Assembly (NCBI RefSeq): GCF_008065155.1
Contig: NZ_CP042819.1
Span: 1,860,001 to 1,924,000, forward strand
DNA length: 64,000 bases
Source of the DNA: Octadecabacter sp. SW4
GTDB taxonomy: Bacteria > Pseudomonadota > Alphaproteobacteria > Rhodobacterales > Rhodobacteraceae
Direction: 5' to 3'
Shown: positions 32,699 through 35,665 of the stretch, piece after piece
How the letters are laid out: every line of letters begins with the position of its first letter
How positions within the stretch are numbered: position 1 is the first letter of the stretch
Made by a program: the position numbers and the translations under genes
Notes under the pieces: model-generated
The model's input: the letters and a program-made list of their open reading frames with translations, nothing else
Told to the model about the DNA's origin: nothing
Database searches by the model: none

Positions 32699-34105
32699 CT
32701 ACTCCAGCACCCGCAATCGCGGCCGACGCCAATGCGCCGCCGGATCAATCATCACCTCTTGCAAGGCCCAGACCATTGCATCGACGCGGTCGGGGCTGCC
32801 GCTGCCGTCAAAGCCACGCGCGCTCATCAGGCACATCTGGTCCTCCAGCGCATCCAAACCGCGCGCATGAAACACCCGGCCCTGTTCATATAACGCCGCC
32901 ACAGGTTCCGCCCGTGCCACCTTGCCACGGCTGGCGCGCACCCCGCGATAAGACACCATCGGATCAATCTGGCGCACGACCGATTCCACCAGATCGCCGC
33001 CCTGATTGACCTCGGCCACCAAACGGGACGCCCCGTGGCGCTGCATCGCTGCCACCGCTGCCTTGGCCCAGTCAGCGGGGGACACGGCTGAAACCGTCGC
33101 ATCCTCGATCACATAGGCGCGCCAGTCCTGCGGCGGGCCTTGGGTCACAGCGCCCACCACAACGATCCCGCAAGCATCCGATCCCTTGTGGCCCGTCACC
33201 GGCGGATCAACAGCCACGACAATCCGGTCCATTTCCGGCAAGGCATCCACCTGCGCGCCCTGCAACGCAGCGGACGTCCAGAGCGCACCCTCGGCCTCGG
33301 CCAGCAAGACACCGTCCAATTCCTGACGACCCAGCCGCGTGCCCGCATACCGCGCCTGCACTTCTTCCAGAAAACTATCCGCCAGATAGGCGCGGTTAGC
33401 CTCGGTCGGCGCATGGGAGCTAACCGAGCTGGCACGCGCCAGCAAATCACGCAGCACACCCACATTGCGCGGCGTCGTCGTCACGCAGGCGCGCGGATGA
33501 TCGCCCAACCGCAATCCGAACTGCAACATATCCCACGCCTCCTCGGCGCGCTTCCATTTGGCCAATTCATCGGCCCAGACCGCATCAAACTGCGGCCCGC
33601 GTAAACTCTCGGGATCATGCGCGGAATATATGCGCGCCTCGGCCCCGTTCGGCCAGACCAGCATCCGCCGCCCGGCAATCCATTCGGGGCGGCGATCGGG
33701 CGGCGAACAGGCCAGAATCCCGCTTTCGCCAAACACCATCACCTCGCGGGTCTGTTCGATCGTTTCACCGATGAGGGCGACGCGACGCGACGCCCCCTCG
33801 TCCTTGGGTCGCGATCCTTCGACCATAGATCTGACCCATTCGGCACCGGCGCGGGTTTTCCCCGCACCGCGTCCACCCAGAATCACCCATGTCCGCCAGT
33901 CCCCTTCAGGCGGCACTTGGTGGTCCAGTGCCCAAAAATCAAACAAATACGGCAGCGCCAACAGCTCTGCCTCACTCAACGCATCCAGAAAGTCCCTCTG
34001 CGCCGCAACAGGTGCTGAGGCGACCAAGGCGGCACCCGATCTGACGTCGGATCGCGTCAAAGTCGATCTCGTCTCGGGGAGTCCCGTCTCCATGGGAGTG
34101 TTCAT
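32699..34105 (-). CDS. GTA large terminase subunit, DNA-packaging ATPase/nuclease (g2)
   Basis: A 468-residue packaging motor equivalent to RcGTA g2. The Walker A loop is GGRGAGKT at residues 77-84, Walker B is FDAVWADELAKW, followed by a coupling motif TTTPRN. The C-terminal RNase-H-like nuclease shows its acidic residues in VVAVDPPVTG, EVNQGGD and SPDRVDAMVWAL. GTA terminases package random headfuls of host DNA. The ATG at 34105 follows GGAGCTGAA, so the gene overlaps g1 by 134 bp in another frame. Confidence 0.96.
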   Translation of the reverse strand: MNTPMETGLPETRSTLTRSDVRSGAALVASAPVAAQRDFLDALSEAELLALPYLFDFWALDHQVPPEGDWRTWVILGGRGAGKTRAGAEWVRSMVEGSRPKDEGASRRVALIGETIEQTREVMVFGESGILACSPPDRRPEWIAGRRMLVWPNGAEARIYSAHDPESLRGPQFDAVWADELAKWKRAEEAWDMLQFGLRLGDHPRACVTTTPRNVGVLRDLLARASSVSSHAPTEANRAYLADSFLEEVQARYAGTRLGRQELDGVLLAEAEGALWTSAALQGAQVDALPEMDRIVVAVDPPVTGHKGSDACGIVVVGAVTQGPPQDWRAYVIEDATVSAVSPADWAKAAVAAMQRHGASRLVAEVNQGGDLVESVVRQIDPMVSYRGVRASRGKVARAEPVAALYEQGRVFHARGLDALEDQMCLMSARGFDGSGSPDRVDAMVWALQEVMIDPAAHWRRPRLRVLE

Positions 34106-34319
34106 ATTTCAGCTCCAATTCTGAAAGACGCCCCATCTGTTTTTCCAACTCCTGCAACTTTGCAGAAAGATTGTTCAGATCGCTCATGTCGCCCGCTTCC
34201 AGGCGTTTGAGCATCTTGCCAAGCGTCGTATTGATACTGCGATAAAGCTGCCTAGCCTCCTCGACACGTTCAGCAGCGGTTTTTGCGTCGGCCTCGGGGC
34301 CGGCGGTGTTTTCAGTCAT
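33972..34319 (-). CDS. GTA small terminase-like protein (g1)
   Basis: A 115-residue mostly helical protein equivalent in position and size to RcGTA g1 (TerS, 107 residues). Two coiled segments are visible: AAERVEEARQLYRSINTTLGKMLKRLEAGD (core ARQLYRSINTTLGKMLKRLE) and LNNLSAKLQELEKQMGRLSELELKYEHSHG. The last 44 residues are encoded in the overlap with g2. It is the first gene of the cluster; its start is only about 45 bp downstream of a terminator-shaped hairpin. Confidence 0.88.
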   Translation of the reverse strand: MTENTAGPEADAKTAAERVEEARQLYRSINTTLGKMLKRLEAGDMSDLNNLSAKLQELEKQMGRLSELELKYEHSHGDGTPRDEIDFDAIRRQIGCRLGRLSTCCGAEGLSGCVE

Positions 34320-34364
34320 GTGATGATGATCCCTATTGGGGAATCCGCCACGCGAGCGAAACGC

Positions 34365-34398
34365 AAAACGGCCCTTGGGGGACTACCCCAAAGGCCGT
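34365..34398 (-). terminator. Terminator-like hairpin just upstream of GTA g1
   Basis: On the plus strand ACGGCCCTTGGGG (34368-34380) and CCCCAAAGGCCGT (34386-34398) form a 13-bp stem with one mismatch and a 5-nt loop. Read on the minus strand it is followed by TTTTGCGTTT. It can end transcripts from fabF-mltG, but it also lies between the nearest good promoter (34425-34453) and g1, so it may act as an attenuator of the GTA operon. Confidence 0.8.
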
Positions 34399-34399
34399 G

Positions 34400-34417
34400 T
34401 TATGCTTCTTCTAGCAT
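34400..34417 (-). other. Five-codon leader frame upstream of GTA g1
   Basis: Directly after the promoter and before the terminator hairpin lies ATG CTA GAA GAA GCA TAA, coding for Met-Leu-Glu-Glu-Ala. The same bases form a small hairpin ATGCT/AGCAT with a 6-nt loop. The ATG falls 7 bp after the -10 box, so it would be leaderless. It may be chance; if real it would be a leader peptide. Confidence 0.3.
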
Positions 34418-34424
34418 GTCACAG

Positions 34425-34453
34425 GTTCTACATCGGACCGTGCGTTCTGTCAA
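34425..34453 (-). promoter_or_regulatory. Sigma-70-like promoter upstream of GTA g1
   Basis: On the minus strand a perfect -35 box TTGACA (34453-34448), a 17-bp spacer and a -10 box TAGAAC (34430-34425, 4 of 6 matches) lie about 100 bp upstream of the g1 start. No other good promoter is visible between mltG and g1. Confidence 0.6.
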
Positions 34454-34504: not shown

Positions 34505-35665
34505 CTACTCCGCCGCCGCCGCCTCAAGCGCGCGGTAAATGGCGACATTGGCGTTATGTTCTTCCAGAGTCACTGCAAAATTATGCCCATCGGCAGGGTT
34601 CAAGGTCTTGGCCACAAAGAAGATATAATCGGTCTCCTCGGGGTTCATCACCGCCTCGATGCTGGCGCGTCCGGGGTTGGCAATCGGGGTCGGCGGCAGG
34701 CCGGGAATGACATAGGTGTTATAGGGTGTCTCGGCGCGCAATTCACTTTGGCGCAAACCGCGCCCCAGAATACCCTCGCCATTGGTGATGCCGTAAATCA
34801 CCGTCGGATCCGTCTGCAATGGCATCCCTTGGCGAAGGCGATTTTCGAACACGCTGGCAACCGTGCCCACCTCGTCTTGGCCACCGGTTTCCTTCTCGAC
34901 GATGGACGCCAGAATCAAGGCCTGCTCGGGCGTTTCCAGCGGCAAACCATCCACCCGATTGGCCCAAGCCTGCGCCAGGAATTCGGCCTGCGCCGTGACC
35001 ATTTCGTCCAGAATCTGGGCCACATCCTCGCCGGGCACCAATTCATAACTGTCAGGTGCAAGTGCCCCTTCGGCGGGCGTTTCGCCAATCTCGCCGGTCA
35101 ACACGTCTATGCCATTAAGCGCGGTCATCGCTTGCCAGCTGGTCACACCCTCGGCCAGAACCACACGATACTGGGTATCGCTCTCGTCGCGCACCGTGCC
35201 GTAAACCGCGGGAACATTGTCACCTGCCATTTCAAACTCGGCCAGATCGACATAACGGTTGGTGGCAGGATCAAGCTCGCGGATCTGCACCACATTGCGC
35301 ACCACACCGATGCGATACACCACCTCGGTGCCACAGGTGCTGCGCCCGGTTCCCGTCACGATGCCGACGATATCCTCCATCGAGGCGCGCTCCGGCACCA
35401 GAAAATTCCCCGCTTTCAACTGCGACGTGCGTTCGGAATAATCCGAACCCATGCGAAAAATCGCCGGTGATTTGATAGCGCCCTGCTCGGACAGCTGTTC
35501 GCTGACGCGGCGCATGTTGGACCCGTCCCTGACGTTCAGACAAATCGCCTGATCCAGCGGGCCTTCGGCGGAATATTCGTTCATGCCCCAAAGGATGACG
35601 CCGCCCGCAAGGAACAGCGCGACAATCAGAAAGGTCAGCCCGTTGGCTGCAATATGCTTCCACAT
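34505..35665 (-). CDS. mltG: Endolytic murein transglycosylase MltG
   Basis: A 386-residue inner-membrane enzyme that cuts nascent peptidoglycan strands and so helps end glycan elongation. It has an N-terminal transmembrane helix (residues 9-29, LTFLIVALFLAGGVILWG), a LysM-like part with RRVSEQLSEQGAI, and the YceG domain with the catalytic Glu in ILASIVEKETG, plus FENRLRQGMPLQTDPTVIYG and YNTYVIPGLPPTPIANPG. Its ATG is directly adjacent to the fabF stop, so the pair are co-transcribed, a common arrangement. Confidence 0.95.
   Translation of the reverse strand: MWKHIAANGLTFLIVALFLAGGVILWGMNEYSAEGPLDQAICLNVRDGSNMRRVSEQLSEQGAIKSPAIFRMGSDYSERTSQLKAGNFLVPERASMEDIVGIVTGTGRSTCGTEVVYRIGVVRNVVQIRELDPATNRYVDLAEFEMAGDNVPAVYGTVRDESDTQYRVVLAEGVTSWQAMTALNGIDVLTGEIGETPAEGALAPDSYELVPGEDVAQILDEMVTAQAEFLAQAWANRVDGLPLETPEQALILASIVEKETGGQDEVGTVASVFENRLRQGMPLQTDPTVIYGITNGEGILGRGLRQSELRAETPYNTYVIPGLPPTPIANPGRASIEAVMNPEETDYIFFVAKTLNPADGHNFAVTLEEHNANVAIYRALEAAAAE

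Follow-up and report, generated by a model that had tools for sequence, protein, structure and literature searches.

The window analysed here, a 64-kb stretch of the Octadecabacter sp. SW4 genome, carries on its minus strand the start of a gene transfer agent (GTA) structural operon, with g1 followed by the large terminase gene g2. Between g1 and the upstream neighbour mltG lies a short leader element made up of a promoter-like sequence, a start-region motif and a terminator-like hairpin (Table 1). From comparison of this leader among relatives, we consider it rather probable that it acts as a conserved antitermination switch of the GTA operon, with the regulator GafA as the antiterminator. 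The layout given in the preliminary description of the locus proved correct: TTGACA is separated by a 17-nt (nucleotide) spacer from TAGAAC, which is a 4/6 match to TATAAT; 7 nt then precede the mini-frame ATGCTAGAAGAAGCATAA, and the 13-bp stem stands between this and g1. The T-run occupies positions 34368-34365, with GCG next on the minus strand, and the ATG of g1 at 34319 lies 48 nt past the stem and 98 nt past the predicted transcription start. Only a weak Pfam match, below the cut-off, was obtained for g1, which is reported to be TerS in Rhodobacter capsulatus (PMC9638019).

Table 1. Features of the GTA leader and its neighbouring genes in the window.
Feature	Position	Strand	Basis or remark
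-35 box TTGACA	34448..34453	minus	sequence
Candidate GafA loading site: conserved spacer element CGCACGGTC, between -35 and -10	34436..34444	minus	sequence comparison
-10 box TAGAAC	34425..34430	minus	family form TATAnn, next T conserved
Predicted transcription start (A)	34417	minus	alignment conservation
Start-region motif GCTAGAAG, predicted -10-like pause element	34408..34415	minus	match to RpoD -10 consensus
Mini-frame ATGCTAGAAGAAGCATAA	34400..34417	minus	not kept as a frame among relatives
Terminator-like leader hairpin, 13-bp stem, 5-nt loop	34368..34398	minus	sequence scan and covariation
T-rich tail TTTGCGT	34361..34367	minus	sequence
g1 (GTA orf 1)	33972..34319	minus	named from position before terminase
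g2, GTA large terminase	32699..34105	minus	Pfam Terminase_6N/6C
mltG (YceG), upstream neighbour	34505..35665	minus	Pfam YceG

A single genome is weak evidence for such an element. A 5-kb terminator scan returned four terminator-like sites where 4.7 were expected, and the window hairpin alone is not above chance. The corresponding promoter scan returned one promoter-like site (1.5 expected) and did not list the window promoter, because the scan requires a final T that this promoter's -10 box does not have. The hairpin is unusually stable (against shuffles, z is -4.8 over 70 nt and -5.1 over the predicted 57-nt transcript), and conservation raises the element above chance.

To assemble relatives, genome contigs were scanned for the GTA terminase and the best 80 of 413 relatives were taken; a DNA search of 61 genomes added 30 loci, giving 110 in total. 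The 93 loci in which a terminase is preceded by 420 nt or more of sequence served as the upstream-region set. The motif GCTRGAAGA, counted without any profile 400-230 nt before the terminase, occurs with at most one mismatch in 72 of these 93 regions (2.8% of shuffles) and exactly in 52 (0.1% of shuffles). Its distance to the terminase is nearly fixed in the 72 loci (median 311 nt). Shimia and Octadecabacter variants are among the 21 motif-negative regions, several of them with a shortened GCTGG; L033 and L036 match well, but beyond the interval searched, and so were counted as negative. TTGAC stands 30-42 nt before the motif in 64 of the 72 loci, which were selected by the start motif alone, and TTGACn4CGnnCG is found in 42. 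In information content, positions upstream of the -35 box carry 0.03-0.10 bit each and those of the box itself 0.55; the 1.59 bits per position of the start motif are inflated, since the loci were picked by it.

A profile, seeded by a regular expression that demanded TTGAC and GCT[AG]GA, matched 63 of the 110 loci at an E-value of 1e-5 (61 of the 93 upstream regions), each of which matched once on the GTA strand; the hairpin itself also gave weak matches in reverse orientation. Alignment A1 comprises 62 loci at a median pairwise identity of 66%; the near-duplicate L091 was dropped and the window replaces its own copy. Because of the seeds, A1 counts overstate the -35 box and the start motif, which takes weight from the case for the switch: TTGAC is present in 61 of 62 rows of a profile seeded with it. 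T24 and A25 of the -10 box are each found in 61 rows, and all 62 have A at the predicted start, usually 7 nt past the -10 hexamer. CGnnCG occupies a fixed position in the spacer in 47 rows (0.9% background), while the gap between the -10 box and GCT measures 9 nt in 47 rows and 8 nt in 14. The -10 consensus of Caulobacter RpoD is reported as GCTANAWC (PMC8144410). GCTRGAAG agrees with it at six or more of eight positions in 59 of 62 rows, as do 1.8% of background octamers; the last base is missed.

Judged by these boxes, a σ70-type promoter stands before the GTA structural operon, and the stretch is very probably the GTA promoter. Work in R. capsulatus supports this assignment, because the interval reported to be bound by GafA, 76-125 bp before g1 on a fragment holding the -10 box and the RNA-seq start (PMC6363796), matches the predicted start in the window. 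The preliminary description had allowed for a real GTA promoter squeezed into the last 45 bp before g1; no second conserved promoter was seen there, and no separate search for one was made.

The hairpin is conserved as well. In the 85 nt that follow the motif, 63 of the 72 loci have a hairpin with a T-run at a dG (folding free energy) of -10 or lower (15.8% of shuffles), and 61 have one at -15 or lower (3.3% of shuffles). The core stem is paired in 93.2% of alignment cells, and pairing reaches at most 61% when the stem is slid. Changes on both sides of the stem number 43, against a shuffled value of 14.5, and none of 500 shuffles reached 43; this control takes no account of the relatedness of the loci. 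By its sequence, an intrinsic terminator is thus predicted downstream of the promoter, one that GTA transcription would have to pass. At the element, no Rfam 15 model matched the window, L120, L062 or L043.

The leaders differ in further details. In the consensus fold, the conserved AGUGGGCAAG before the hairpin (A1 columns 48-57) pairs with the U-tract and CAUUU beyond the hairpin (columns 92-101); as modelled, this extended stem would need read-through before it could form. In 35 of the 72 loci (L062 and relatives), another inverted repeat, CTCGTGC..GCATGAG, lies between the T-run and g1; it is absent from the window and may touch g1 translation. Loktanella/Yoonia-type GTAs (L087, L103, L109) keep the start motif and have no recognisable leader terminator. 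By eye, Shimia-type GTAs (L060, L070) likewise have no recognisable leader terminator, and their start motif is shortened.

The element is widespread in the family, Rhodobacteraceae/Rhodobacterales, and tied to the GTA. Of 394 family genomes sampled, 292 match covariance model R1 (E ≤ 0.01), usually at one place. The window's own genome holds one strong match and five weak ones (E 0.19 or worse), in whose loci no GTA terminase or mltG match was found. In 29 of the 30 best family loci the terminase lies 338-366 nt downstream, and in the remaining one the contig ends; in all 16 genomes with both coordinates known, the match stands directly before the terminase. Both terminase and GafA are carried by 20 of 20 model-positive genomes checked. 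A pattern of promoter, spacer and start motif, containing neither hairpin nor gene, retrieved 60 contigs from IMG/VR. Every one has a same-strand terminase 303-474 nt after the motif (median 312) and the hairpin, in a test that is not fully independent since some contigs may be near relatives of training loci. These virus-filed contigs (L165-L224) are likely to be GTA clusters, not phages.

Beyond the family, the element was sought in 289 class genomes. R1 matched 14 of them, of which two were family members and 12 others gave weak matches; we treated the latter as chance, because 10 of the 12 loci were fetched and none had a GTA terminase, g1 or mltG. In phage RDJL Phi 1, which has a GafA-like protein, the best leader match had an E-value of 2.4 in 50 of 62.7 kb. 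The Caulobacter promoter pattern gave no match in viral contigs, and no phage relative of the GTA terminase was found at ≥ 60% identity.

The window's genome encodes a GafA homologue of 369 amino acids with a helix-turn-helix (HTH) and a DUF6456 domain (L150:979-2088, minus strand), about 0.3 Mb from the GTA cluster; by its regulator, this GTA would be of the GafYZ/GafA-controlled kind. GafA homologues are annotated as DUF6456 or HTH. In Caulobacter, GafZ, which is homologous to the C-terminal part of GafA, is reported to be an antiterminator that lets polymerase pass a terminator, and its element lies between -10 and -35; replacing the weak -35 there lowered activity about sixfold and made the promoter GafYZ-independent (PMC11150451). 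The same authors raise, as a possibility only, that an antitermination activity of R. capsulatus GafA might have gone unrecognised. A fold comparison with a GafA model returned no known antiterminator among the best 50 matches of either program and weighs neither way.

The order and spacing of the parts, their conservation and covariation, the linkage to the terminase and the GafA homologue in the same genome are observed. We propose that they work as follows. The near-consensus -35 box suggests that the promoter would fire unaided and that the gate would lie at the hairpin. GafA would load onto RNA polymerase at the promoter, with the spacer as its predicted loading site, while GCTAGAAG would halt the σ-bearing polymerase long enough for loading. 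Without GafA, transcription would end at the hairpin after about 54 nt; with GafA, polymerase would be carried past it, and termination would be cancelled for the whole structural operon. The spacer as GafA site, the pause at the start motif, termination at the hairpin and its override by GafA are all predictions from the sequence comparison. Lineages that lack the hairpin, such as L087, L103 and L109, keep the start motif. This agrees with an antiterminator being loaded there on behalf of the entire operon, and sits badly with a leader peptide or an mltG terminator; a separate function of the motif in promoter escape would agree with it too.

Several known systems resemble this arrangement. 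One concerns the same kind of operon under a homologous regulator: PgtaT of Caulobacter crescentus, with GafY/GafZ, also drives the main GTA operon, has its regulator site between -10 and -35 (where this leader has its conserved spacer) and a terminator between promoter and structural genes, and is the one target per genome (PMC11150451), as this leader is usually the one copy. However, the terminator reported there consists of three 150-bp repeats after gtaT, whereas this hairpin lies within the first 55 nt; PgtaT has a weak -35 (AATCAT) and needs GafY and IHF (integration host factor) for initiation, whereas the -35 box here is near consensus; and its site is near-palindromic (PMC11150451). 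This leader also conserves a -10-like motif in the start region. Both Q and AlpA are reported to require a promoter-internal binding element and a -10-like initially transcribed sequence, and to act on a downstream terminator (PMC6606751, PMC9371919). The lambdoid pR' promoter accordingly shows an element between -35 and -10, a -10-like early transcribed sequence, a terminator and then the late genes (PMC6606751), although its sequences are unlike those of the leader, whose pause and antitermination are predicted. Pseudomonas PalpB-tB, controlled by AlpA, has the same three parts, including an intrinsic terminator downstream of the promoter (PMC9371919), and is reported to be used in a subset of cells (PMC7969949); it differs in having CACGAT at -1 to +5, in place of TAGAAG at about +5 to +10. 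The leader has apparent sequence counterparts of all three parts of the Q/AlpA module, and the element as a whole would correspond to the late-promoter layout of these phage-type systems. To our knowledge, the Q antiterminator protein is unrelated to GafA, and we know of no homology between GafA and AlpA. A 2025 paper by Korotaev, cited in PMC13236601, reportedly deals with antitermination in the Bartonella GTA. The open-licence GTA literature, as far as our partial survey covered it, does not describe this leader.

Several points weigh against the proposed antitermination switch. The T-runs are short (4-5 T in 7), and TAGAAG does not end in the T of a -10 element that the AlpA pause requires. 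A near-palindromic GafZ site as in Caulobacter is not present in the 62 spacers: the best 7+7 inverted repeats resemble those of shuffles (at least five pairs in 13 of 62 rows vs about 14% of shuffles), with 5/7 pairs in the window against 6/7 in the Caulobacter motif. By the scan criterion, 9 of the 72 motif-bearing loci have no clear terminator-like hairpin, and of 20 genomes checked among the 102 model-negative ones, 15 carry the terminase and 16 carry GafA; the hairpin is therefore not essential in all lineages. In R. capsulatus, whose GTA shares the operon and has its GafA-bound interval at the place of the element, GafA is reported to recruit RNA polymerase through omega (PMC9638019), and the accessible parts of PMC6363796 and PMC9638019 describe no terminator or antitermination.

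The omega-dependent activation and the nine loci that manage without a clear terminator speak for an alternative in which GafA acts at initiation only, via omega, and the hairpin serves passively, as a brake on or insulator against leaky and mltG read-through transcription, and is simply overrun on strong activation. We regard this as unlikely: it leaves unexplained the conserved start motif, which persists where the terminator is lost, and the near-consensus -35 box in 64 of 72 loci, and the homologous GafZ is a reported antiterminator (PMC11150451).

Improbable, in turn, is an independent gene for a small RNA of about 54 nt that acts in trans or on GTA mRNA and shares the promoter region by chance. 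The element does have all the parts of a small transcription unit, and its 5′ segment, GCURGAAGARRUGGGCAAG, is conserved, but it is bound to the GTA terminase in the viral contigs (60/60) and family loci (29/30), has one strong copy in its own genome, lacks an Rfam match in the four loci searched, and conserves the promoter spacer too. The leader RNA may be a by-product, as is the 6S RNA of phage lambda. Very improbable is a cis-acting RNA like put of phage HK022, in which the 5′ segment would itself modify polymerase: this segment is among the most conserved parts, but put has stem-loops, and the consensus fold shows no separate stem-loop before the terminator stem. GafA is, moreover, reported to bind promoter DNA (PMC6363796).

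Ribosome-mediated attenuation via the mini-frame is hardly credible. In one of its two readings, the preliminary description had GTA transcription start here and pass an attenuator with a possible leader peptide. Among relatives, the promoter (TTGAC in 64/72) and the covarying terminator-like stem (93.2% paired) hold up; the peptide does not. The start codon is ATG in 33 of the 62 A1 rows and AAG, ACG or AGG in 22, 4 and 3 (29 without ATG); 21 of the 33 ATG frames have no stop inside the aligned leader and five stop after five codons, the window and four others. With no conserved leader-peptide frame in these 62 leaders, the peptide was rejected. An ATG at or next to +1 would also leave scant room for a ribosome-binding site. 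The small hairpin attributed to the mini-frame fares no better, its 5-bp palindrome being kept in two of 62 rows, the window and its congener.

Nor is the hairpin at all likely to be the fabF-mltG terminator that the preliminary description considered, even though mltG is adjacent in the window and in 46 of the 72 loci; it lies farther off in 15 and was not detected in 11. The leader hairpin occurs in 39 of the 46 loci with adjacent mltG and in 24 of the 26 loci counted without, including L081, whose adjacency is not judgeable from its 336 nt of upstream sequence, and hence goes with the GTA, not with mltG. A further terminator-like hairpin, scored without shuffle control, lies between mltG and the promoter in 7 of the 46 adjacent loci, and in one of these, L011, the leader hairpin is missing. 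The leader hairpin may still stop mltG read-through.

For the evolution of these agents, antitermination at the leader would invite a wider proposal, to which we give an even chance: that the switch for late genes in the phage ancestor survives in Rhodobacterales GTAs, with a promoter active in all cells, a stall at GCTRGAAG, an aborted 54-nt RNA, and GafA as a σ4-like Q protein that opens the operon in few producers, gating at the leader terminator where Caulobacter gates at initiation instead. The conserved leader terminator and start motif make GafA antitermination directly testable, and point to the bases that GafA may read. As a short DNA signature, the leader also allows GTA operons to be found, virus-filed ones included.
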